A DNA stretch of 64,000 nucleotides. Origin: Phycisphaeraceae bacterium. Its GTDB lineage: Bacteria; Planctomycetota; Phycisphaerae; Phycisphaerales; Phycisphaeraceae. Below are positions 1,678 through 55,685 of the stretch, piece by piece. Both the position numbers and the translations under genes were made by a program. The notes beneath the pieces are model-generated. The model saw only the letters and a program-made list of their open reading frames with translations. It ran no database searches and was not told the DNA's origin. The stretch covers positions 1-64,000 of the forward strand of contig JADLFV010000128.1 in NCBI GenBank assembly GCA_020849625.1, read 5' to 3'. Each line of letters starts with the position of its first letter. The stretch's first letter is position 1.

Positions 1678-1808
1678 ACATCCAATAAACGCGATCCTGA
1701 AATAATAGCAAGCCCAACCCTGCAAAACCAGACATTTTGCACGTGGCCTTCGCCCGTCAGCGTCCGTGGGGTAATGAGCGATTCCCAATGACCAGTGGCC
1801 AATTCCCG

Positions 1809-1874
1809 ATGACCAATGACCAATGGCAATGAGCGGGGCGCGGGCTGGGGGTTGGGCATTGGGCATTGGGCATT
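1809..1874. repeat. Heptamer tandem repeats upstream of aguB
   Basis: Two copies of ATGACCA (1809-1822) with degenerate neighbours, then three exact copies of GGGCATT at 1854-1874. These occupy the divergent gap between the prepilin gene and aguB and stop 17 bases before the aguB start, so they overlap any aguB promoter. Confidence 0.8.
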
Positions 1875-2946: not shown

Positions 2947-3888
2947 ATGAAGTTACCGCCGGAATGGCATCCGCAGAGTTGTGTCTGGGTCAGTCCGCCG
3001 CACGCGGCCGATACGTGGCCGGGCTGTCTGGAAGAGGCGCAGGCGCAGTTCGCGGCCTTCACCGATCTGCTGTCGAAGACGACGCCGGTGCGGACGCTGT
3101 CGGCGTTGGGGATTGCGACGGATGATTCGTGGGTGCGCGATTACGGGCCGATCTTTGTGCTGGATGAGTGGGGCAAGCTGCACGCGCACGATTTTCGTTT
3201 CAACAACTGGGGCGGCAAGTACGGGCCGTGCCCCAATGATGATGCGGCCGCGGCCAAGCTCATCGAGCACCTGGGTATCGCGTTCACGCATCACGACGAC
3301 TTCATCCTGGAGGGCGGGTCGATCGACGTATCGGGCGACGGTACGCTGCTGACCACCGAGCAATGCCTGTTGAATCCGCAGCGCAACGCGCACCTGTCGC
3401 GCGGGCAGATCGAGGAAAAACTGGCCCAAACGCTAGGCGTTTCGCGCATCGTCTGGCTGCCGGGCGGCATCGAGGGCGATGACACGGATGGTCACATCGA
3501 TGACGTAGCGCGATTTGTGGCAGATGGTTTGACGGTGTGCGTCAGTCCGCCGCCGGGGCATCCGGACCACGACATCATGCAGCGCAACATGGCGGCTTTG
3601 CGGGCGGCGAAGCTGGAGGTGATCGAGTTGCCGGCCCCGCAGCCGGTGTGGTTCGATGACCCCAATGAAGGGCGGCGGATGCTGCCGTGCAGTCACGCCA
3701 ACTTTCTGATGAGCAACGGGCAGGTGCTGGTGCCGGTGTTCGGCCAGCGCAGCGATGACGCGGCCCTGCGTCGCCTTGACGACGCGCTGGCGCATTGGAC
3801 GGTGACGCCGGTGCGTGCGGACGTGCTGGTGGTGGGTTACGGCTCGCTGCACTGTCTGACCATGCAGCAGCCGGAGAGCGGGGAGTAG
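2947..3888 (+). CDS. aguA: Agmatine deiminase
   Basis: A 313-residue member of the peptidyl-arginine deiminase superfamily, converting agmatine to N-carbamoylputrescine. Recognisable blocks are DDSWVRDYGPIFV near the N-terminus, ILEGGSIDVSGDGTLLTTEQCLL, GDDTDGHIDDVARFV with the active-site His/Asp region, and the C-terminal catalytic Cys303 in GYGSLHCLTMQQP. It is slightly shorter than the usual 340-370 residues. Start: ATG at 2947 just after an in-frame GTG (2944); no strong ribosome site distinguishes them. The stop codon TAG (3886-3888) lies inside a GGAGTAG heptamer array, so the last codons are repeat-derived. It works with aguB upstream. Confidence 0.92.
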   Translation: MKLPPEWHPQSCVWVSPPHAADTWPGCLEEAQAQFAAFTDLLSKTTPVRTLSALGIATDDSWVRDYGPIFVLDEWGKLHAHDFRFNNWGGKYGPCPNDDAAAAKLIEHLGIAFTHHDDFILEGGSIDVSGDGTLLTTEQCLLNPQRNAHLSRGQIEEKLAQTLGVSRIVWLPGGIEGDDTDGHIDDVARFVADGLTVCVSPPPGHPDHDIMQRNMAALRAAKLEVIELPAPQPVWFDDPNEGRRMLPCSHANFLMSNGQVLVPVFGQRSDDAALRRLDDALAHWTVTPVRADVLVVGYGSLHCLTMQQPESGE

Positions 3889-4024
3889 GGAGTAGGCAGT
3901 AGGGAGTAGGGATTGTGGTCAAGTCAAGTTAGGGGAGGTGCAGCAGGTGGTTAAAGGGCTTCCACATAGCTACGCCAACGAGCCTTAAACCCTACTGCCT
4001 ACTGCCTACTGCCTGCTCCCTGCT
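3882..4024. repeat. Heptamer hairpin between aguA and the thioredoxin-like gene
   Basis: Left arm: GGAGTAG units from 3882 (GGAGTAG, GGAGTAG, GCAGTAG, GGAGTAG). Right arm: CTACTGC units from about 3992 (three near-identical copies, then CTGCTCC and CTGCTC). The arms are complementary and about 80 bases apart. The left arm provides the stop codon of aguA, and the right arm encodes the last eight residues and the stop of the converging thioredoxin-like gene. Confidence 0.9.
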
Positions 4025-4511
4025 CAAGCACGTCGTCGAGGTCCATGGGATGACCCTGCCAGAGCAACTTGCCTTCGGGTGAAAAGACGAACGCCTGCGG
4101 GATGCTGGTCACGCCCCAGGCGTCGGCCAGCGAGGAGCCCTGCAGGTTGTCGCCGGCCTGCAACCAGTCCATGGCGTTGGCGGCGATGAAATCTCTGGCG
4201 GCCTGCGGGTCCTGGTCCACGCTCACGCTGATGAAGGTGACGCCGCGATCGTGGTATTGCTCGTTGAGCTGCTTCAGGTGCGGCACCATCTGCACGCAGG
4301 GCCCGCACCAGGTGGCCCAGAACTCGATCACCGTGACGCGCCCGGCCTGCGAAGCGGAACTGATCGTCTGGTTGTCGAATGTCACCAGCGACCACTCGAG
4401 CGGTTCAGCGCCGAGTTGCGGCCCGGGCGCTGATGTCAACGAGCGCAGAAGGCCGGTGAAGACAAACAGGGCGACAATGCCGGTAAGAATCCATATCACG
4501 CGCTTGTTCAT
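3999..4511 (-). CDS. TlpA/ResA-like thioredoxin, membrane-anchored
   Basis: A 170-residue protein. An N-terminal hydrophobic helix (about residues 5-22) should anchor it facing the periplasm. A thioredoxin fold follows with FWATWCGPC (Cys69 and Cys72), a Pro-containing IPQAFVF cis-proline motif and the AlkA/ResA-like insert HDRGVTFISVSVDQD. Such proteins reduce disulfides in exported or cytochrome proteins. The start at 4511 gives MNKRVIWILTG directly; the longer frame to 4601 is not supported. The final residues EQGAGSRQ and the stop come from the intergenic CTACTGC repeat, implying that the original C-terminus was replaced or extended. No cytochrome genes are adjacent. Confidence 0.85.
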   Translation of the reverse strand: MNKRVIWILTGIVALFVFTGLLRSLTSAPGPQLGAEPLEWSLVTFDNQTISSASQAGRVTVIEFWATWCGPCVQMVPHLKQLNEQYHDRGVTFISVSVDQDPQAARDFIAANAMDWLQAGDNLQGSSLADAWGVTSIPQAFVFSPEGKLLWQGHPMDLDDVLEQGAGSRQ

Positions 4512-6924: not shown

Positions 6925-7076
6925 GAACCGCAGATTTCACAGATTTAAGAAAAACAAATTGAGCCACGAAGGCACTAAGGACACGAAGAAGCGAACTTTG
7001 GTTTGTGACAACTTTGTGTCCTTCGTGCCTTCGTGGCTTCGATTCTTAATTTGTGAAATCCGTGACTCTGCGGTTC
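6925..7076. repeat. Nested inverted repeat, copy B
   Basis: Outer arms: GAACCGCAGATTTCACAGATT with its partner ending CTGCGGTTC at 7068-7076. Inner arms: GCCACGAAGGCACTAAGGA and TCCTTCGTGCCTTCGTGGC. The central loop (GAACTTTGGTTTGTG) matches copy A (GAACTCTGGTTTGTG), so the two share ancestry beyond the arms. The right end supplies the TGA stop of the TrkA-N gene at 7075. Confidence 0.85.
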
Positions 7077-10905: not shown

Positions 10906-11024
10906 TCAGTTAGAGCGAATTCGGCAGACAGGTTAGCGGAAGGCCGGGGGCGTTGCCAACCGGGAGTGCGGCGGGCGGTGGTGGTACATTGGTGGCGGAA
11001 AATCCAATTTCAGGCGAAGCGACC

Positions 11025-12077
11025 ATGAGGCGATGCGGGCACATGTTGGCGGCTGCGGCAATGGTGCTGGGATGGACGATCGCGGCTGTGGCGGATGAGC
11101 CGGCCCCAACGCCGCCGATGGTTTCGCAGATTGAGCAGCGGGCAGACGCGGTGCTGTCGCTTTGGCCGGTGGACCCTGCGCCGCTGAAGCCGGAGGTCAC
11201 GCAGGAGTCGGTCACCTATCGCACTTCGAAAGACGGCCAGATCAACCGGGTGATCTTTGACATCGCGCATCCGACGCTGACGGTCTTTCTACCCGGGCAA
11301 CCGGACGCCAAACGCCCCGCCATCGTGATCTGCCCCGGCGGCGGATATCGCGGCGTGGTGATCGATCGTGAAGGCTTTCGCATCGCGGACCGCCTGAGCC
11401 GGGCGGGTATGGCGTGTTTCGTGCTCAAGTATCGCCTGCCGGTGGGCGTGACACCGGGCGCGGACCAATTGCCGCCGCCGATCCAGGATGTGCAGCGGGC
11501 CATCCGCCTGGTGCGCAGTGAAGCGGAGAAGTGGAACATCGACCCGGCGCGCATCGGCGTGATCGGTTTCTCCGCCGGCGGTCACCTGGCGGGGATGGCG
11601 GCCACGCTGTATGAAGAGCGCGATGCTTCGGTGAATGATCCGCAGGCGGACGTGTCGTGTCGGCCGGACTTCGCGGCGTTGATGTATGCGGTGGCGTCGA
11701 TGCACGCGGACATTGCGCACATGGGCAGTCGCAACAATCTGATCGGCGAAAGCGCGAGCGTGGAGATCGAAGATCGCTTCAGCACCGCCCAGCGCATCAC
11801 GCCGGACGCGCCGCCGCTGTTCATCTGCCACGCCAAAGATGATGCCGCGGTGCCGATCGCCAATAGCGTGGGCATCGCAGCCGCGGCCGATGAAGTGGGC
11901 GTCGAGTATCTGTTCCTGCCGTTCGAGGTGGGCGGGCACGGGTTCTCCACCGGCTCGGCTGAGACCGGCACCGATGTGTGGATCGATCAATTTCTGTCGT
12001 GGCTGAGGGAAGGCGGCTTCCTGGCGGGCACTCTGTCGCCCAAAGCGCGACGGCTGGTGAGTTTGAAGATGCGTTGA
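11025..12077 (+). CDS. Exported alpha/beta-hydrolase (esterase), copy 1
   Basis: A 350-residue secreted hydrolase with a signal peptide ending AAVADEP. Fold markers: oxyanion region CPGGGYRGVVIDREG, nucleophile Ser183 in GFSAGGHLAG, acid in CHAKDDAAVP and His in VGGHGFSTG. The family is the BD-FAE/acetyl-xylan-esterase-like group of carbohydrate esterases; the substrate is not readable from sequence. A near-identical paralogue starts 32 bases downstream in the same direction, so this is a recent tandem duplication. Start ATG at 11025; the upstream extension to 10953 lacks a signal sequence. Confidence 0.85.
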   Translation: MRRCGHMLAAAAMVLGWTIAAVADEPAPTPPMVSQIEQRADAVLSLWPVDPAPLKPEVTQESVTYRTSKDGQINRVIFDIAHPTLTVFLPGQPDAKRPAIVICPGGGYRGVVIDREGFRIADRLSRAGMACFVLKYRLPVGVTPGADQLPPPIQDVQRAIRLVRSEAEKWNIDPARIGVIGFSAGGHLAGMAATLYEERDASVNDPQADVSCRPDFAALMYAVASMHADIAHMGSRNNLIGESASVEIEDRFSTAQRITPDAPPLFICHAKDDAAVPIANSVGIAAAADEVGVEYLFLPFEVGGHGFSTGSAETGTDVWIDQFLSWLREGGFLAGTLSPKARRLVSLKMR

Positions 12078-12109
12078 CCGGTTGAAACGAAAAAACAAGT
12101 GAGGCTGAC

Positions 12110-13153
12110 ATGAAACGATGCGGGTGCGTGCTGGGTGTTCTGGCGATCGTGAGTCTGTGGGCAGCGGCAGCATGGGCGGCCGAGCAGAATGAAGCGCCGC
12201 AACTGGTATCGCAGATCGAGCCGCGGGCCAACGCCGTTGTGGACCTTTGGCCGGTGGATCCTGCTCCGCTGAAGCCGCAGATCGAGCAGGAGATCAACGA
12301 GTATCGCGTCAATCGCAAGACCGGCGAACTCGACCGCGCCATCTGGTACGTCAATCATCCGACCATCAGCGTCTATCTCCCCGAGCATCCCGATCAAGCC
12401 CGGCCGGGGATCGTGATCTGTCCCGGCGGCGGCTATCGGGGCGTGATGATCGACCGCGAGGGCTACAACATCGCCGACCGCATGAACAAGCTCGGCATCG
12501 CCGCCTTCATTCTCAAGTATCGCCTGCCCATCGGCGTGACGCCTGGCGCCGATCAGTTGCCGTCGCCGGTGCAGGATGTGCAGCGTGCCATCCGCCTGGT
12601 GCGTAGTGAAGCGGAGAAGTGGAACATCGACCCCAATCGCCTCGGCGTGATCGGTTTCTCAGCCGGCGGATCGCTGGCGGGACTGGCATCCACGTTGTAC
12701 GACGAGCGAGACGTGTCGGTGAACGATCCGCTGGCGGACGTGTCGTGTCGTCCCGACTTCGCGGTGCTGGTGTACCCGGTGGCGTCGATGCACGCCGACG
12801 CGGCCCACATGGGCAGCCGCAACAATCTGATCGGCGAAGGCGCGAGCGTGCAAGTCGAAGATCGTTTCAGCACCGCCCAGCGCATCACGCCGGACACGCC
12901 GCCGCTCTTTCTGGTGCACGCTCGGGATGACAAGGTCGTGCCGATCGCCAACAGTGAGCAGATCGCTGCCGCTGCCGAGGAGGCCGGCGTCGCCCACGTG
13001 TTCGTGCAACTGGACATCGGCGGCCACGGCTTCGCCTTGGGATCCCCGGACAACGGCACCGATGTCTGGGTCGCCCGGCTCGTCACATGGCTCAAAGAAG
13101 GCGGATTCCTGCAGCCCGACCCCCGCCGCCCTGTGATACCGCTTCATCCATGA
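12110..13153 (+). CDS. Exported alpha/beta-hydrolase (esterase), copy 2
   Basis: A 347-residue paralogue of the upstream gene, alignable with few gaps from LVSQIEPRANAVVDLWPVDPAPLKP to the end. Signal peptide cleavage is likely after AAWAAE. Catalytic residues are conserved: CPGGGYRGVMIDREG, Ser184 in GFSAGGSLAG, Asp in VHARDDKVVP and His in IGGHGFALG. Differences concentrate in the signal peptide, residues 58-100 and the C-terminal tail (PDPRRPVIPLHP), suggesting neutral drift rather than loss of activity. Probably co-transcribed with copy 1; both likely release acyl groups from polysaccharides outside the cytoplasm. Confidence 0.85.
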   Translation: MKRCGCVLGVLAIVSLWAAAAWAAEQNEAPQLVSQIEPRANAVVDLWPVDPAPLKPQIEQEINEYRVNRKTGELDRAIWYVNHPTISVYLPEHPDQARPGIVICPGGGYRGVMIDREGYNIADRMNKLGIAAFILKYRLPIGVTPGADQLPSPVQDVQRAIRLVRSEAEKWNIDPNRLGVIGFSAGGSLAGLASTLYDERDVSVNDPLADVSCRPDFAVLVYPVASMHADAAHMGSRNNLIGEGASVQVEDRFSTAQRITPDTPPLFLVHARDDKVVPIANSEQIAAAAEEAGVAHVFVQLDIGGHGFALGSPDNGTDVWVARLVTWLKEGGFLQPDPRRPVIPLHP

Positions 13154-13231
13154 ACCATTGCTCTGATCCTGAGTCATGGTGCGCTGCTATACTGTTGACT
13201 GTTGATCACCCGGCCGCAGGGAGGCGCCGTC

Positions 13232-14239
13232 TTGTCCGTCACCGCCACAGATCACACGCAACCGAGCCCGGCCCAGGACGTGCAAGCTCATACGCCCCCC
13301 ATATCTTCTGCACACCATGACTCTGGCGCACCCTTCCGGGGGCGCGTGATCGCGATGATGAACCAGAAAGGCGGCGTCGGTAAAACCACCACGGCGGTCA
13401 ACCTCGGGGCCGCCCTCGCACGTCTGGGTCATCCCACGCTGCTGATCGACCTCGACCCGCAGGCCCACCTCTCGCTGCACCTGGGCGTCGATCACGATCA
13501 GATCACTCACAGCATGTACGACCTGCTGACCGACGCGGAGGTGGCTGCGTCGCAGGTAGTCTGGCAGGTGGCCGAGAACCTGGCGGTGCTGCCGGCCGAA
13601 GTGAACCTGGCGGGCGTGGAAGCGGAGCTGGCGGACCGCGTGGTGACCGGTGCGGCTCAGAACGTGCTCAAGTTAAAACTGATGCCGCTGCTAAATCGGG
13701 TATCGGGTGTCGGGTATCGGGTATCGCAAGGCAGCGAGCCGGCGCACGAACAGAAACCCGACACCCGAACCCCGATACCCGATACCCGATACCAGTTCGT
13801 CATCATCGACTGTCCGCCCTCGCTGGGACTGCTGACCATCAACGCATTGGTCATGGCCCGCGAGGTGATCGTGCCCATGCAGGCCCATTTTCTCGCCTTG
13901 CAGGGTCTGGGCAAGCTGTTCGAGACGATCACCATGGTGCGCCAGGGCATCAACCCGCAGTTGCGCGTCGGCGGCGTGGTGCTGTGCATGCACGAGAAAC
14001 AGACGCTGCTGGCCGGCGAAGTGATCGGCGACGTGAAGCGCTTTCTGGAAGAGGCCCGCCACACCGATCAGCCGTGGTCCGAAGCGGTGGTGTTCGATCC
14101 GCCCATTCGCCGCAACATCAAGCTGGCCGAGTCACCCAGCTTCGGCAAGAGTATTTTCGACTACGACGCTGCCTGTCACGGCGCGCAGGACTACGAAAAA
14201 CTGGCCCGTTCCGTGGCGGCGCATCGCGTGGGCAAGTGA
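13232..14239 (+). CDS. parA: ParA/Soj-family ATPase with in-frame repeat insertion
   Basis: A 335-residue MinD/ParA ATPase. Deviant Walker A KGGVGKTTTAVNLGA (about residues 46-60), Walker A' DLDPQAHLSLHLG, Walker B FVIIDCPPSLGLLTINAL and KLAESPSFGKSIFDYDAACHGAQDY at the C-terminus. TTG at 13232 was chosen as start because AGGGAGG (13218-13224) sits 7 bases upstream; the 35-residue leader before Walker A is longer than usual. Residues about 155-187, between LLNRV and YQFVIIDCPPS, are encoded by a heptamer hairpin (CGGGTAT/ACCCGAT, 13697-13790) and have no counterpart in ParA proteins. No parB is adjacent, so the role (chromosome partition versus another cargo) is open. Confidence 0.85.
   Translation: MSVTATDHTQPSPAQDVQAHTPPISSAHHDSGAPFRGRVIAMMNQKGGVGKTTTAVNLGAALARLGHPTLLIDLDPQAHLSLHLGVDHDQITHSMYDLLTDAEVAASQVVWQVAENLAVLPAEVNLAGVEAELADRVVTGAAQNVLKLKLMPLLNRVSGVGYRVSQGSEPAHEQKPDTRTPIPDTRYQFVIIDCPPSLGLLTINALVMAREVIVPMQAHFLALQGLGKLFETITMVRQGINPQLRVGGVVLCMHEKQTLLAGEVIGDVKRFLEEARHTDQPWSEAVVFDPPIRRNIKLAESPSFGKSIFDYDAACHGAQDYEKLARSVAAHRVGK
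13697..13790. repeat. Heptamer hairpin inside parA
   Basis: Left arm CGGGTAT, CGGGTGT, CGGGTAT, CGGGTAT (13697-13724); right arm ACCCGAC, ACCCGAA, CCCCGAT, ACCCGAT, ACCCGAT (13756-13790); spacer 31 bases. The array keeps the parA frame open (VSGVGYRVSQG ... KPDTRTPIPDTR). Confidence 0.93.
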
Positions 14240-23260: not shown

Positions 23261-23408
23261 GAACCGCAGAGACGCAAAGGACACAGAGGAAGAAGGTTGT
23301 TGGTCTTTGGTTGTTGGTTGTTGGTTGCTCTGTCAGGCTACTTCAACCAACAACCAACAACCCTTCTCCTGCCTGCCTTTCTCCGCGCCCTCTGCGTCTC
23401 TGCGGTTC
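23261..23408. repeat. Nested inverted repeat, copy D, with GGTTGTT heptamer core
   Basis: Outer arms GAACCGCAGAGACGCAAAGG and GCGTCTCTGCGGTTC. The core is a heptamer hairpin: GGTTGTT, GGTCTTT, GGTTGTT, GGTTGTT, GGTTGCT (23295-23329) facing AACCAAC, AACCAAC, AACCCTT (from about 23345). The right end supplies the stop of the M16-like gene. It shows that the 9-nt and 7-nt repeat classes combine into composite elements. Confidence 0.88.
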
Positions 23409-34110: not shown

Positions 34111-34215
34111 AGATTTTTGATTTTAGAATTTAGATTTTAAATTTTTAGTTGCGACGATCGTTGGCGGCCCGGGACACGCCGTCAATCTAAAATCTAAATT
34201 CTAAAATCTAAAATT
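34111..34215. repeat. AGATTTT/AAAATCT heptamer hairpin between pyrH and frr
   Basis: Left arm AGATTTT, TGATTTT, AGAATTT, AGATTTT, AAATTTT (34111-34145) starts two bases after the pyrH stop; right arm has ATCTAAA/ATTCTAA units (about 34183-34213) and ends just before the frr ribosome site. An AT-rich hairpin inside a conserved operon would act on pyrH-frr readthrough or RNA stability. Confidence 0.9.
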
Positions 34216-34808: not shown

Positions 34809-34898
34809 TGAGCAATGAGCGATGAGCTATGAGCCAGGAACGGATGTAACTTCGATGACTTCTGTTTCAAAGCTCATAGCTCATAGCTCAAAGCTCAT
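34809..34898. repeat. TGAGCNA/AGCTCAT heptamer hairpin before the DUF4159 gene
   Basis: Left arm TGAGCAA, TGAGCGA, TGAGCTA, TGAGCCA (34809-34836); right arm AGCTCAT, AGCTCAT, AGCTCAA, AGCTCAT (34871-34898). The right arm is translated as KLIAHSSKLM, the n-region of the next protein's signal peptide. Confidence 0.92.
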
Positions 34899-42329: not shown

Positions 42330-42338
42330 GGGGACGGA

Positions 42339-42453
42339 GGCTTGAGCAGTGAGGCTTGAGGCTGGCGTCCGGCGAGGCGGAGCTCGCCGGCTATGGGCTT
42401 GCGCCTCACACCTCACTCCTCAAGCCTCACTCCTCAAGCCTCACCACTCAAGC
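42339..42453. repeat. GGCTTGA/CTCAAGC heptamer hairpin with nested repeat
   Basis: Left arm GGCTTGA, GCAGTGA, GGCTTGA (42339-42359); right arm CTCACTC, CTCAAGC, CTCACTC, CTCAAGC, CTCACCA, CTCAAGC (42412-42453). Between them sits the dispersed palindrome of 42361-42404. The right arm contains the stop of the acyl-CoA synthetase gene at 42448. Confidence 0.92.
42361..42404. repeat. Dispersed palindromic repeat, copy 2
   Basis: The segment starting GCTGGCGTCCGGCGAGGCG and continuing AGCTCGCCGGCTATGGGCTTGCGCC is nearly identical to 851-896, here nested inside a heptamer hairpin. Confidence 0.75.
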
Positions 42454-45135
42454 CTGTCCCTTCAACTCCAGAACGCCGTGGATCAGGCCCTCCTTGCGGT
42501 CGGTGGTGATCTGAAAATTGAACTCGCGCATGGTGGCGGCCATGCGCTTGTTTTCCATCAGCGTCTCGGCGGAGATGTGGCGCAGGCCCCACTGGCGTGC
42601 CACCTGGATGCAGAAGCGCGTGATGTGCGAACCGACGCGCTTGCCCTGCCATTCGTCGATCACCAGCAGGGCGAACTCACCTTCATGGCGGTCGGCGTCG
42701 GCGGCCAGGCGTCCCACGCCAATCATCTTCACCGGCTGCGTTTCGGTCAGGGCCACCACGGCGATCTCGCGGTCATAGTCCGTGAAGCAGTAGCGGGTGG
42801 CCATCTCGTGATTGGGGCCTTTGATGGTGGCGAAGAAGCGGGCTCGCAGCGTCTCGGGCGAGCAGGCCTTGAGCATTTCCATCCACATCGGCTCGTCGCT
42901 GGGACGGATCGGGCGCAGGCGCAGACGTGTGCCGTCAGCCAGCTTGACCCTGCCGTCGTACTCGGCGGGGTACGGGCGAATCGCCAGGTGCGAGTAGCGC
43001 TCGTCGGGCGTTGGCGAGGCATGGTCCAGCCGGGCCCGCGCGTCCAGGGCCACCGCCCCGGTAGGCGAGACGATCAGCGGGTTGATGTCGAATTCCTTGA
43101 GATTGGGCGAATCAGCCACCAGGTAGGAGAAGCGGATCAGCACGTCGATCAGGGCATCCACGTTGACCTTGGGCCGGCCGCGGAACCCGTTGAGCAGCGG
43201 CCAACCCTGGAGACTGCTGAGCATGCGGCGGCAGATCTTTTCAGTCAGCGGCGGCAGACCCAGCACGTGGTCGTCGAGCACTTCCGCGGTCACGCCGCCC
43301 ATGCCCACCATGACCACCGACCCGAACACCGGATCCTTCTTGGCCCCCACGATCATTTCCACGGCATCGGTGTGCGAGATCATCGGCTGCACGTTGACGC
43401 CGAGGATCGTGGCCTTGGGGAACTGCTCACGAGCCGAGGTGGTCATGCGCTCAAACGCAGCCTTCACCGACGCGGCATCGGTCAGGTGCAGCGCCACGCC
43501 GCCGGCATCGGACTTATGCGAGATGTCCGGCGACAGCAGCTTGACCGCCACCGGATAGCCGATCATGTCGGCGAACTTGGCGGCCTCATCGGCGAAGCCG
43601 GCCTTGACGGCGCGGGCGATGGGAATGCCGTAGGAATCCAGCAACTCCTTGGAGTCGATCTCGCTGAGCATGGTGTCCGCCTGGCTCAGCAAAGCGCGGA
43701 CGTAGATGCCCTGACGGTTGGTGGACAGCACCATGTCCTCGGGCACCGGCTGGGGCGTTTCATAGAGCGTGCGGATGTTGCGGCCGTAGTTGACCAGGTG
43801 CATGAACCCGCGGATGGCACGCTCGGGACTGGGATAGCAGGGGATGTTGGCCTCGGTCAGAATACGAGCGCCGGCCGCGACCACGTTGCCACCCATCCAG
43901 GCTGCCAGCACGGGTTTACCCGCCTTGGCCGACGCCTTGACCACCGCCTGGGCCACCGCCTTGGGATCGGTCATGGCCTGCGGTGTAAGGATCACCAGCA
44001 TGGCATCGACCCCGTCGTCCGCCATGACCAGGTCCAGGGCGTCCACGTAGCGCTTGTCGTCGGCATCACCCAGCACGTCCACCGGGTTGTTGTGCGACCA
44101 GCAGGGCGGCAGGACCTTGTTGAGTGCTTCGATGGTCTTGGTTGACAGTTCCGCCAGGGCGCCGTTGGCAGCGATCAGGGCGTCGGTGGCCATGACGCCC
44201 GGGCCGCCGGCATTAGTGATGATGGCCAACCGTTCGCCGCGCGGAGTGGCGGTGTGCTCGAGCAGTGCGGCACAGTCGAAAATCTCTTCGAACTCTTTGA
44301 CACGCACGATGCCGGCCCGGCGGAAGGCCGATTCGTGTACGTCATCGGCGCCGATCATGGCGCCGGTGTGCGAACTGGCAGCACTGGCCGATGCGGCGAA
44401 GCGGCCGGACTTGCAGGCGATGATCGGCTTGGTGCGTGTGAAGGCGCGGGCGGCGGAGATGAAGCTGCGGGCATCGGTGATCGATTCGATGTAGAGCAGG
44501 ATGGCGCGGGTCTTGGCGTCCTGACCGAAGTAGTCGATCAGGTCGGCGAAATCGACGTCCGCCATGTTGCCGACGCTGACGAAGTGCGACAGGCCGATGT
44601 CCTGCGTTTTGGCCAGGTCGAGGGCGGCCGTGCCCAGGGCGCCGGACTGGCTGATAAAGGCGACGCGGCCTTCGCCGGGGATGCTGCTGGTGAAGCTGGC
44701 GTTGAGTCCGATGCCGGGCGAGATGACGCCCAGGCAGTTGGGGCCGATGATGCGCATGTTGTAATGGCGTGCGATCTCAACCAGTTTCTTTTCGGCGGCC
44801 TTGCCTTCGGGGCCCGCCTCGCGGAAGCCGGCACTGAGGACGATGGCGCTCTTGACGCCCTTTTCGCCGCAGCTTTTGATCACCTCGTGCACGGTGGAGG
44901 CCGGGGTGCAGACCACAGCCAGATCGGGCGCGGCCGGCAGATCGGCGATGCTCTTGTAGGCTTTACGTTCCAGCACCTTGTCGCGCTTGGGGTTGATCAG
45001 GTACACGTCGCCCTGGAACGCGCTGTTGCAGAGGTTGGTGGCCAGGGCGTGACCGACGCTGCCGACTCGATCACTGGCGCCGATGACGGCCACGGACTTG
45101 GGAGCTAACAGGGGAACAAGACTTCGCACACTCAT
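42448..45135 (-). CDS. Pat-type protein: ADP-forming acyl-CoA synthetase fused to GNAT
   Basis: An 895-residue multidomain protein. The N-terminal CoA-binding Rossmann part is SVAVIGASDRVGSVGHALATNL; the succinyl-CoA-synthetase-like ligase part has IIGPNCLGVISP, FISQSGALGTAALDLA and SSHTGAMIGADD (the His motif); an ATP-grasp region covers about 480-710 (GIPIARAVKAGFADEAAKFADMIGYPVAVKLLSPDISHKSDAGGV); a GNAT acetyltransferase occupies 735-895 (RLRPIRPSDEPM, LLVIDEWQGKRVGSHI). This is the layout of bacterial Pat/PatZ lysine acetyltransferases, whose classic substrate is acetyl-CoA synthetase; acs is at 61.3 kb. The C-terminal codons lie in a repeat arm. Confidence 0.85.
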   Translation of the reverse strand: MSVRSLVPLLAPKSVAVIGASDRVGSVGHALATNLCNSAFQGDVYLINPKRDKVLERKAYKSIADLPAAPDLAVVCTPASTVHEVIKSCGEKGVKSAIVLSAGFREAGPEGKAAEKKLVEIARHYNMRIIGPNCLGVISPGIGLNASFTSSIPGEGRVAFISQSGALGTAALDLAKTQDIGLSHFVSVGNMADVDFADLIDYFGQDAKTRAILLYIESITDARSFISAARAFTRTKPIIACKSGRFAASASAASSHTGAMIGADDVHESAFRRAGIVRVKEFEEIFDCAALLEHTATPRGERLAIITNAGGPGVMATDALIAANGALAELSTKTIEALNKVLPPCWSHNNPVDVLGDADDKRYVDALDLVMADDGVDAMLVILTPQAMTDPKAVAQAVVKASAKAGKPVLAAWMGGNVVAAGARILTEANIPCYPSPERAIRGFMHLVNYGRNIRTLYETPQPVPEDMVLSTNRQGIYVRALLSQADTMLSEIDSKELLDSYGIPIARAVKAGFADEAAKFADMIGYPVAVKLLSPDISHKSDAGGVALHLTDAASVKAAFERMTTSAREQFPKATILGVNVQPMISHTDAVEMIVGAKKDPVFGSVVMVGMGGVTAEVLDDHVLGLPPLTEKICRRMLSSLQGWPLLNGFRGRPKVNVDALIDVLIRFSYLVADSPNLKEFDINPLIVSPTGAVALDARARLDHASPTPDERYSHLAIRPYPAEYDGRVKLADGTRLRLRPIRPSDEPMWMEMLKACSPETLRARFFATIKGPNHEMATRYCFTDYDREIAVVALTETQPVKMIGVGRLAADADRHEGEFALLVIDEWQGKRVGSHITRFCIQVARQWGLRHISAETLMENKRMAATMREFNFQITTDRKEGLIHGVLELKGQA

Positions 45136-49362: not shown

Positions 49363-49461
49363 TGAGCCCTGAGGAGGAGTCCGCGACGACGAAGGGCCGG
49401 ATCGAATGCACAAGCACTGCCCCATCCGGCCCTGCGTCGCCGACTCCTCAGGGCTCGGCTT
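49363..49461. repeat. Long hairpin between kdtA and proB
   Basis: GAGCCCTGAGGAG (from 49364) pairs with CTCCTCAGGGCTC (49446-49458), GCGACG with CGTCGC, and GGGCCGGAT (49394-49402) with ATCCGGCCC. Only small bulges interrupt the stem; the loop is about 22 bases (CGAATGCACAAGCACTGCCCC region). It overlaps the 3' end of kdtA. Possible terminator, structured RNA or MITE-like element. Confidence 0.85.
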
Positions 49462-50797
49462 CGAATTCCATGCAAGCCCTCATCCCCTGTCTGTCGCGGC
49501 CCCCAAGTGGTGGAAGGTATTTCAACAGCAGGTCGGCGTAGCGCTGCGTGGCGCCGCGGCGGCGGGCGATCACTGCCTGGCCATTGGCAGTCAGTTGCGC
49601 AGCACGCTCACGGTTTTCCAGCAGTCGCAGCGCGGCGGACATCGGATCATCGCTGACCACGATGCCGTCATCGGCCAGAAACGCCTCGACGACCTCAGCG
49701 AAGTTGTAGTAGTCGGTCCCCTGCACCGTCGGCTTGCCCAGGGCGATCGGCTCGATGGGATCGGAACCGCCAAGCCGTTCTTTGGGACAGAACGTGCGCC
49801 CCACGATCACCACGTCGGCCAGGGCGTAAGCCTTGCGCAGTTCGCCCATGGTGTCCAGGAGATAGATGTCGGATGTCGGATGTCGGATGGCGGATGGTTG
49901 TGTGCGACGGATGATGCCGGGACACAGAGCGGCCACTTCATCGAAACGCTCGGGCTTGCGCGGCACGATCATCAGTTGCACCCCCGGAAGCTTGGCCTCG
50001 AGCAGAATCTTTTCTTCACCCGGGCCCGTTGACCCGGCCACGATCAGCGGTTTGTCGCGGTCGATGCCCATGTCGGCCGCCAGTTCATCCGCACCCTCGA
50101 TGGTGACACTTCCGGGGGCGGGGGCGGTGTCCCATTTCATGGTGTCGAGAACGGTGACGGATTGATCGGGCACGCCCAGGCTGGCGAAGCGCTGGGCATA
50201 GTCCTGGGTCTGCACGCCGGCTGCGGTGACCTGGTGGAAAGCGCGATAGATCATGGGGCCGAGGCGCTGATAGCGGCGAAAGCTGCGGGCGGTCAATCGG
50301 CCGTTGATCACCACCACGGGAATGTTGCGCTGACGGCAGGCCTGCACGAAGTTGGGCCAGACCTCCAGCTCCATCAGGGCCACGGCATCGGGCCGCACGC
50401 GATCGAGCAGGCGGCGGACGGAACCGGTGAAGTCGAAGGGATAGCGAACGATGGAGATTTTGTCGCCGTAACGCTGCACAGCCCGGGCGTGGCCGGTGTT
50501 GGTGGTGGCGCTGAGGATGATCTGCAGATTGGGGCGGCGTTGCTGAAGCTCGGTGATCAGGGCGGCGGTGGCGTTGACCTCACCGACGCTGACGGCATGG
50601 ATCATCAGGCGGCCCCCGGAAGTGTCCCCGGAAGCGCCCCCGGAAGTTGTATTGGATGTCGCCGCCAGCGCTTGGCCAAACCCGAAGCGACCGGGCCAGT
50701 CGGTGCGCCACTTGCCGGTGCGCAGCAGGTTGAAGGCCCAGACGGGCGAGCTGAGCAGTCCGCCGGTGGCGTAGAGGATGTCGAGGCCTCGCCCCAT
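49448..50797 (-). CDS. kdtA: Kdo transferase with several in-frame repeat inserts
   Basis: A 449-residue GT30/GT-B protein that adds Kdo to lipid A. RTGKWRTDWPGRFG, MIHAVSVGEVNATAALI, ILSATTNTGHARAVQRYGDKISIVRYPFDFTGSVRRLL, DAVALMELEVWPNF and DTMGELRKAYALADVVIVGRTFCPKERLGGSDPIEPIALGKP are conserved. Non-conserved inserts: TSNTTSGGASGDTSGG before LMIHAVSVGEV (three TTCCGGGG words), APAPGSV, and QPSAIRHPTSDIY (GATGTCG heptamers) before LLDTMGEL. Presence implies an LPS-type outer membrane. Divergent from metG. Confidence 0.9.
   Translation of the reverse strand: MGRGLDILYATGGLLSSPVWAFNLLRTGKWRTDWPGRFGFGQALAATSNTTSGGASGDTSGGRLMIHAVSVGEVNATAALITELQQRRPNLQIILSATTNTGHARAVQRYGDKISIVRYPFDFTGSVRRLLDRVRPDAVALMELEVWPNFVQACRQRNIPVVVINGRLTARSFRRYQRLGPMIYRAFHQVTAAGVQTQDYAQRFASLGVPDQSVTVLDTMKWDTAPAPGSVTIEGADELAADMGIDRDKPLIVAGSTGPGEEKILLEAKLPGVQLMIVPRKPERFDEVAALCPGIIRRTQPSAIRHPTSDIYLLDTMGELRKAYALADVVIVGRTFCPKERLGGSDPIEPIALGKPTVQGTDYYNFAEVVEAFLADDGIVVSDDPMSAALRLLENRERAAQLTANGQAVIARRRGATQRYADLLLKYLPPLGGRDRQGMRACMEFEAEP
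49866..49900. repeat. GATGTCG heptamer array inside kdtA
   Basis: GATGTCG three times, then GATGGCG and GATGGTT: five units in 35 bases, translated on the minus strand as part of QPSAIRHPTSDIY. No complementary arm is present, unlike most arrays in this window. Confidence 0.9.
50107..50129. repeat. TTCCGGGGGC site in kdtA (APAPGSV insert)
   Basis: CACTTCCGGGGGCGGGGGCGGTG, read on the minus strand as TAPAPGSV, between TMKWD and TIEGADEL. Confidence 0.55.
50611..50650. repeat. Triple CCCCGGAAG word in kdtA
   Basis: GGCCCCCGGAAGTG, TCCCCGGAAGCG and CCCCCGGAAGTTGT in direct succession with about a 12-base period, encoding TSGG, ASGD and TSGG immediately before the conserved MIHAVSVGEV block. 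Confidence 0.88.
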
Positions 50798-54443: not shown

Positions 54444-55685
54444 TTACACCAGCAGCGCGGCCGGGCTTTCCAGCAGGCTCTTGAGCGTGGTCAGATACTC
54501 GGCAGCCGTGGCGCCGTCGAGCACGCGGTGATCGCAGCCGAGCGTGGCGATCATGCGTCGGCCGACGGCGAGCTGGCCGTCGCGCACCACCGGCTGTTCG
54601 ATGGCGGCGCCCACCGCCAGGATCGCAGCCTGCGGCGGATTGATGATGGCGGTGAACTGGGTGACGCCGAACATGCCCAGATTGCTGATGGTGATGGTGC
54701 CGCCGGACATTTCCTCCTGAGACAGGCCGGCCTCGCGGGCCTTGGCGGCGATGGTTTTGGTCTCTTCGGAGATCTGGCGCAGGCCTTTGTTCTGCACGTC
54801 GCGCAACACGGGCACGATCAGGCCTCCGCCGCGGGCAGCGGGCAGCGCCACCGCGATGCCGACGTTGACCGAGCCGTGCTGCTGGATCACGTCGCCGGCC
54901 CATGAGCTGTTGACGATCGGATGCTGCACGCAGGCCACCGCCACGGCCCGGGTGACAAAGTCGCTGACCGAGAGCTTGACCTGCTGATTGGCCAGTTGCT
55001 CGTTGAGTGTCTGACGCAGGTCGAGCAGGCTGTCCATATCGATGGGCATGGCGACGGTGAACTGCGGAATTGTGGTGACCGATTCGACCAGGCGGCGGGC
55101 GATGGTCTTACGCATGTTGGAAAGGGCAATGGTTTTGCCTTCCAGCGTTGCGGGGGCGGGAGCGGACGGTTTCGAGTTTCGAGTTTCGAGTTTCGAGTTT
55201 TTCTCTTGCAGGACGTCGCGTTTGATGATGCGGCCGCCGGGGCCGGTGCCCTGGATGGTGCTCAGGTCGATGCCCTTTTCATCGGCGATGGCGCGGGCGA
55301 CGGGGCTGACCAGCAGGCGGGCGCCGTCGGAAGAGGGTGCGGAGGCAGAAGCGGCGCGTTTGGCGGGGGCATCCGAGGCTTCGCTGCGCTCAGCCTGCGG
55401 CTTGGCGGTAGTTTCGGAGGTGGAAGCGGCGGGTTGGGCATCTGCGCCATTGCCGTTGAGCACGAGGATGACCTGGCCCACGGGCACGGTCTGGCCCTCT
55501 TCGACGTTGATGGCGGTCACGGTGCCGTCGTCGAAGGCCTGCAGCTCCATGGTGGCTTTATCGGTCTCGACGTCCGCCAGGTGATCGCCGGAGGCCACGG
55601 TGTCGCCGACCTTGACCCGCCATTTGACGAGTGTGCCCTCTTCCATGGTGTCGGACAGGCGGGGCATTTCGATGGAAATGGACAT
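54444..55685 (-). CDS. pdhC: Pyruvate dehydrogenase E2, dihydrolipoyl acetyltransferase
   Basis: A 413-residue E2 core. One lipoyl domain (1-78) with Lys43 in VETDKATMELQAF; an Ala/Ser/Glu linker; an E3/E1-binding domain at about 128-165 (LVSPVARAIADEKGIDLSTIQGTGPGGRIIKRDVL); and the catalytic domain with IPQFTVAMPID, GGTITISNLGMFGVTQFTAIINPPQAAILAVG and catalytic His386/Asp390 in CDHRVLDG. KNSKLETRNSKPSAPAP after the binding domain is encoded by a GTTTCGA heptamer array. E1 is not in the window. E3 is probably lpdA. Start 55685, with AGGAG about 11 bases upstream; GTG at 55697 is the alternative. Confidence 0.92.
   Translation of the reverse strand: MSISIEMPRLSDTMEEGTLVKWRVKVGDTVASGDHLADVETDKATMELQAFDDGTVTAINVEEGQTVPVGQVILVLNGNGADAQPAASTSETTAKPQAERSEASDAPAKRAASASAPSSDGARLLVSPVARAIADEKGIDLSTIQGTGPGGRIIKRDVLQEKNSKLETRNSKPSAPAPATLEGKTIALSNMRKTIARRLVESVTTIPQFTVAMPIDMDSLLDLRQTLNEQLANQQVKLSVSDFVTRAVAVACVQHPIVNSSWAGDVIQQHGSVNVGIAVALPAARGGGLIVPVLRDVQNKGLRQISEETKTIAAKAREAGLSQEEMSGGTITISNLGMFGVTQFTAIINPPQAAILAVGAAIEQPVVRDGQLAVGRRMIATLGCDHRVLDGATAAEYLTTLKSLLESPAALLV
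55169..55199. repeat. GTTTCGA heptamer array inside pdhC
   Basis: Four exact GTTTCGA units (55169-55196) plus GTTT, translated on the minus strand as KLETRNSK in the linker between the peripheral-subunit-binding and catalytic domains. No complementary arm. Confidence 0.93.

Follow-up and report, generated by a model that had tools for sequence, protein, structure and literature searches.

Inverted heptamer arrays between genes and in loops of core proteins, including a ParA-type ATPase, of a Phycisphaeraceae bacterium

Introduction

To our knowledge, heptamers have been recognised for many years as the most abundant of the long simple repeats in bacteria, and we know of no accepted reason why the unit should measure seven nucleotides. 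Heptamer repeats have been described in Xanthomonas (GGGAATC) and Nostoc (GGGGA(C/T)T) (Rehm et al. 2015, PMC4692102), and X. campestris carries ~70 convergent inverted heptamer pairs that are dispersed, lie near stop codons on the coding strand and are seldom found in genes (PMC4692102). At a single site, the P6b hairpin of the Nostoc trnL group I intron, the stem consists of either TDNGATT or NNTGAGT heptamers, one type having repeatedly been replaced by the other between lineages (PMC4476775). Direct repeats of TAACTGA are distributed patchily across phyla (Beggiatoaceae, Cyanobacteria and Bacteroidetes) and are mostly intergenic, with 24 sets within or overlapping open reading frames (PMC4679880), and the Rickettsia palindromic elements, families of ~150 bp with a conserved peptide, reside in frame in many unrelated genes (PMC10969869). 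According to PMC4679880 and PMC4692102, Mrazek and co-workers found in a 2007 survey that heptamers are the commonest class of long bacterial simple sequence repeats, and polymerase slippage was proposed as their origin.

The arrays described here are of a kind already known from the heptamer repeats of Xanthomonas and Nostoc and from trnL P6b. Like P6b, they include hairpins at fixed sites whose heptamer differs between lineages, although P6b is one structural RNA site, and the present sites are many and unlinked, a good number of them in protein-coding genes. They resemble the TAACTGA repeats as abundant, mainly intergenic heptamer arrays; those repeats, however, are direct, lie mostly upstream of starts and almost never form inverted pairs (PMC4679880). 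In-frame residence in unrelated genes is shared with the Rickettsia elements, whereas here the arms vary and most loops are unique. The Mrazek survey, to the extent that the later papers cite it, does not mention the inverted pairing, constant arm length and cross-genus retention of sites seen here. The literature searched, mostly outside subscription journals, held no report of sites shared across genera with a change of heptamer inside core genes.

Results

The window, by which we mean the whole stretch of DNA analysed (64,000 nucleotides, positions 1 to 64,000 of the forward strand of contig JADLFV010000128.1, assembly GCA_020849625.1), comes from a Phycisphaerae metagenome-assembled genome (MAG) of 4.82 Mb in 154 contigs, hereafter G000, of which stretches totalling 822 kb were examined. 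An initial annotation of the window had proposed that a heptamer hairpin lies inside a ParA ATPase, and the hairpin proved to be real, with two arrays whose arms are 88% complementary across 32 nt.

13202..14239, + strand: parA-type ATPase open reading frame, 345 amino acids from TTG at 13202 (ORF listing, Pfam)
13695..13726, + strand: left arm, 4.6 units of ATCGGGT, G-rich on the + strand (Tandem Repeats Finder)
13697..13786, + strand: 30-codon extra segment (residues 166-195) compared with relatives that have no linker (match boundaries)
13727..13755, + strand: hairpin loop, 29 nt, coding for QGSEPAHEQ
13756..13793, + strand: right arm, 5.4 units of ACCCGAT, C-rich on the + strand (Tandem Repeats Finder)

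The true start of the 345-residue frame is uncertain, its conserved part beginning at ~13343, and the frame stays open throughout the heptamer segment, which would be read as the peptide VSGVGYRVSQGSEPAHEQKPDTRTPIPDTR. The product matches the Pfam families AAA_31 (8.5e-49) and CbiA and contains the deviant Walker A motif KGGVGKT, the Walker B strand and the family profile of ParA/Soj ATPases, which are also its nearest solved chains; its closest relatives are MAGs of Phycisphaerae/Phycisphaerales. Two tandem paralogous alpha/beta hydrolases, the second a Pfam BD-FAE match, lie immediately upstream of parA at 10953-13153.

Folded as RNA, the hairpin has a predicted energy of -56.9 kcal/mol (z = -6.1 against 200 dinucleotide shuffles), and by inspection the left arm holds four GGG tracts. 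No significant relative of the 29-nt loop was found, and a search of the window against Rfam matched no family. The loop shares CAAGGC with the array-free linker of a sister-genus species (G450), a match that bears on the idea of an original host linker and was not significant (p = 0.08).

In three relatives (G025, G008 and G020) the ParA matches end at residue 165 and restart at residue 196 while being contiguous on the DNA; hence the 30 codons between are extra in G000. The initial annotation's statement that homologues have a few residues at this position needs correcting, since the loop ahead of Walker B naturally ranges from 0 to ~30 residues, in some relatives with ordinary codons. Its refuting case, the segment in ordinary codons in unrelated taxa, arose only to the extent that other relatives have ordinary linkers, of different sequence, at this variable position. 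An AlphaFold2 model of ParA (mean pLDDT 82) places the insert, model residues 119-148, between a helix that spans 104-118 and the Walker B strand at 152-156; pLDDT falls below 50 at residues 120-146, which are predicted to be disordered. The insert is most likely a floppy surface loop. The hairpin occupies a loop that tolerates change of length, between the pre-Walker B α-helix and the Walker B strand; ParA presumably works normally despite the insert, which in all likelihood serves no function.

The hairpin belongs to the same family as hairpins found between genes, while residing in frame within a conserved NTPase. The further arrays in the window are as follows.

1785..1874: intergenic arrays CCAATGA and TTGGGCA, reverse polarity (C-rich left)
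3881..4025: intergenic hairpin GGGAGTA/CCTACTG between convergent genes, both predicted stops within the arms
23295..23362: intergenic hairpin GGTTGTT/CAACCAA
33221..33316: intergenic hairpin AGGGGGT/CCCTACA
34111..34214: intergenic hairpin AGATTTT/AATCTAA, starting 2 nt past a gene end
34809..34898: intergenic hairpin TGAGCAA/TCATAGC, 9 nt past a gene end
42337..42455: intergenic hairpin GAGGCTT/CGCCTCA
49865..49897, - strand: single array, GATGTCG x4.7, in the Kdo transferase (WaaA/KdtA) gene (49448-50797), peptide SAIRHPTSDI
55169..55200, - strand: single array, TTTCGAG x4.6, in the linker of the pyruvate dehydrogenase E2 gene (54444-55685), peptide NSKLETRNSK

The two in-gene arrays at the end of this list are single arms of 32-33 nt with no partner. 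The window also contains a second kind of dispersed repeat (2759-2900 and 6965-7060), made of CACGAAGG / CCTTCGTG words in 8-9 nt steps and also of CGCAGATT-like words; CACGAAGG, counted together with its complement, has 59 occurrences in the 822 kb of G000.

Across these 822 kb we counted 121 arrays of period 7, compared with at most 11 of any other period from 4 to 15; by extrapolation the whole genome is estimated to hold ~700. The first 462 kb contain 75 such arrays (at most 5 of any other period from 4 to 15), compared with none in Markov-shuffled DNA, which together with the fold score of the ParA hairpin dismisses chance or low complexity as their source. The arrays have exact 7-nt units that are G-rich on one strand, like those of Xanthomonas and Nostoc; unlike in those genera, for which one heptamer type per genome has been described, dozens of heptamers coexist in G000 (at least 44 classes, ATCGGGT leading). 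Their length peaks at 31-33 nt (48 of 121). Two or more arrays are present in 72 of the 110 clusters, and the adjacent pairs recall the convergent inverted pairs of Xanthomonas: the exact heptamer is common to both arms, inverted, in 59 of 72, whereas arms taken from different elements match in 6%; 58 pairs have the G-rich array on the left and the C-rich one on the right, and 6 have the opposite order. Unit variants are not mirrored between the arms (31 better, 28 worse), so no copying of one arm from the other is visible, and fold-back copying was rejected. The outer flanks of G-rich arms are enriched for GGGGA and GGGAG (23 and 16 occurrences against ~1 expected, for example at L041:8285-8303), which is a purine-rich context rather than a fixed site.

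When the 110 clusters were compared all against all, most loops and flanks proved unique, apart from two small groups with common loops (L041/L056/L144/L047/L145/L153 and L044/L055/L145/L149), and a single mobile cassette was discarded on this ground. A non-autonomous MITE- or REP-like element that transposes as a cassette and has landed in ParA would fit the high copy number, the hairpin shape, the intergenic bias and these few groups. We nevertheless think such an element quite improbable, given the unmatched loops and flanks, the 23 of 75 arrays (score 14 or more) without a partner arm, and the change of arm sequence at sites that stay in place, described below. Shared terminal inverted repeats and internal sequence of the MITE type were not found, the arm sequence differing from element to element.

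Placement was judged with a simple, purpose-written codon-usage gene caller, so that distances between arrays and genes are approximate. On this basis ~35 of 48 distances put a gene 3' end within 15 nt of an array or overlapped by it, and many arms overlap the predicted stop codon, a preference for gene 3' ends that is again like that of Xanthomonas and Nostoc. The strong bias, the great stability of the hairpin and the like placement in Xanthomonas and Nostoc (PMC4692102) would all suit hairpins that act as RNA or DNA, be it as terminators, mRNA 3' ends or quadruplex regulators, of which the ParA copy would be an accidental extra. We consider this improbable, since the same placement would result if gene 3' ends were the only places where insertion is neutral, and since hairpins also occur inside genes such as mutS, priA and tgt, where termination would be harmful.

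Indeed, 26 of the 110 clusters lie within predicted genes, about a quarter and including core genes, which sets G000 apart from Xanthomonas and Nostoc. Ten hosts were named by NCBIfam: MnmA, ClpB, DnaA, UvrA, ValS (two arrays), KdsB, LpxB, Kdo transferase, PDH E2 and Tgt. Compared with solved homologues, MutS has 21 extra residues directly ahead of the Walker A strand, and a stretch of 44 residues in PriA corresponds to 6 in the solved chain. The statement that the element also enters genes therefore stands, resting on intragenic clusters that include MutS, PriA, UvrA, DnaA, ValS and ClpB, although not demonstrably in the sense of a transposing cassette. All intragenic arrays are in frame, and among the arrays listed, heptamers that contain a stop in some frame, such as TAGGCAG, are only intergenic, which we attribute to survival bias.

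We compared the same loops in six species of a sister genus (G453, G452, G035, G007, G450 and G451), whose ParA proteins are 67-73% identical to that of G000. Heptamer arrays are present at the ParA loop in four of the six, one with ATCGGGT units (G453) and three of the GGGTCYN type; of the latter, G452 and G035 have GGGTCTN types and G007 has GGGTCCA plus GGGTATC, its contig breaking at that point. G450 and G451 have short ordinary linkers instead. At the MutS loop, G453 carries ATCGGGT, G035 GGGTCTN and G007 GGGATTN, while G450 has a right arm of GGGGTTN, G451 has remnants and the peptide of G452 reads as ATCGGGT-type. At the PriA loop, GGGTCTN is found in G452 and G035 and a GGGTCTN-type array in G453; the loop is decayed in G450 and G451 and short in G007. 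In KdsB, a CCCCAAN-type array of G007 reads CAACCCCCAATCCCC, where G000 has ACCCGA-type units. A second PriA site has GGGGTTT-type arrays in three sister-genus species (L226:13153-13189, L235:10677-10710 and L244:11738-11782), whereas the G000 protein has none. The array in the PDH E2 linker has no counterpart in the sister genus.

The heptamer at a shared loop thus often differs, and it tends toward the one common in that species (GGGTCTN, GGGATTN, GGGGTTN or ATCGGGT). Among the pattern matches listed, those of G035 are mostly GGGTCTN (GGGTCTG) and those of G000 mostly GGGTATC; in small samples, arrays of G450 are GGGGGTT-like and those of G007 GGGGATT/GGGATT-like. The turnover is a mosaic, with G452 and G453 mixing heptamer types and the second PriA site keeping GGGGTTT in three species. 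Orthologous sites common to two genera with changed heptamers are a further difference from Xanthomonas and Nostoc. An assembly artefact is unlikely, since these loops hold arrays or their remnants in independent MAGs of the sister species as well.

These comparisons speak against the suggestion that the ParA insertion is recent: most of the sister-genus species bear arrays in the same loop, and the MutS, PriA and KdsB loops behave as the ParA loop does. The ParA site is old or recurrent, and we found no close strain in which it is empty. The simplest reading is that the shared sites are ancestral and that the repeat word has turned over locally; independent insertion into the same few loops seems less likely.

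Of 392 genomes sampled from the phylum, 6 contain the exact string GGGTATCGGGTATCGGGT; two of the 6 belong to other families (G324 and G409) and have several copies. G409, which is complete and represents a distant family, has arrays of period 7 only, ~30-31 nt long, with the ATCGGGT heptamer present. Some of its hairpins join arms of different, non-complementary heptamers and still keep the convergence of G-rich left and C-rich right arms. Arrays were rare in relatives sampled at 16-40 kb each.

Discussion

Any account of the arrays has to accommodate their observed anatomy, abundance, polarity, length, placement and sharing of sites. The explanation we favour, with modest confidence, is neutral retention combined with recurrent synthesis of 7-nt repeats, ancestral sites being rewritten locus by locus. 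The loop sites would have been occupied before the split of the two genera, and their repeat units would later have been re-synthesised or overwritten at each locus, drifting to the heptamer favoured by the species; we infer the overwriting from the different heptamers at orthologous sites. Both the birth and the turnover of arrays may stem from slippage plus strand switching, an aberrant repeat synthesis that advances 7 nt at a time where DNA is G-rich or forms hairpins. They would persist where they are neutral, directly past stop codons and in surface loops, and genes would keep them only if the heptamer reads without stops.

Slippage alone, however, predicts neither the peak at 31-33 nt nor the fixed polarity, and plain slippage does not predict that ATCGGGT is shared with the distant G409. 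The length peak, the polarity and the words shared by distant genomes thus go beyond plain slippage and make a dedicated repeat-adding activity conceivable. One form would be a trans-acting machine that adds G-rich heptamers to a fixed length at 3' ends, for example at breaks, as in telomere healing, the ends then being joined. Joined ends would give the prevailing polarity, with arms of one heptamer made independently; the length peaks in G000 and G409, the joining in G409 of arms of different heptamers with the polarity kept, and the species-specific heptamer spectra also agree with it. Neither an enzyme nor a template was found, however, and at least 44 heptamer classes in G000 are too many for one template. 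The reverse transcriptases checked, in G000, G409, G324 and G030, adjoin group II introns and were rejected as the maker; the sole RVT_1 match found in G000 (L159, G000:C86:41500-46000) adjoins Rfam matches to such introns. Y1 transposases gained no support as the maker: G000 has 4 Y1_Tnp matches, and similar numbers occur in genomes without dense arrays. On balance we hold such a machine to be unlikely. The more far-reaching conjecture, that a telomerase-like bacterial activity writes fixed-length heptamer repeats from a changeable template at dispersed sites and might so rewrite core-gene arrays to the current heptamer of the species, is one to which we give little credence.

This lineage offers an unusually dense heptamer set, in which the inverted arms are of near-constant length. 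At orthologous sites in MutS, PriA, ParA and KdsB, different species carry different repeat words, so that the birth and turnover of arrays can be traced on known protein trees. Disordered loops grow in frame within proteins of replication, repair and translation, and we caution that where annotated proteins contain peptides like PIPDTRYPIPDTR, these are in-frame translations of repeat DNA.

Some individual arrays depart from the usual pattern. Mixed-heptamer pairs of G409 (L134:6027-6104 and L119:8834-9016) have inner CAGAG...CTCTG ends, and the same genome holds a perfect 91-nt array of 13 GCGATAA units (L130:4252-4342), far above the usual 30 nt. On an IMG/VR contig classed as viral (L266:4401-4561), outer GCTAGGT/ACCTAGC arms enclose inner ATCGGGT/ACCCGAT arms.
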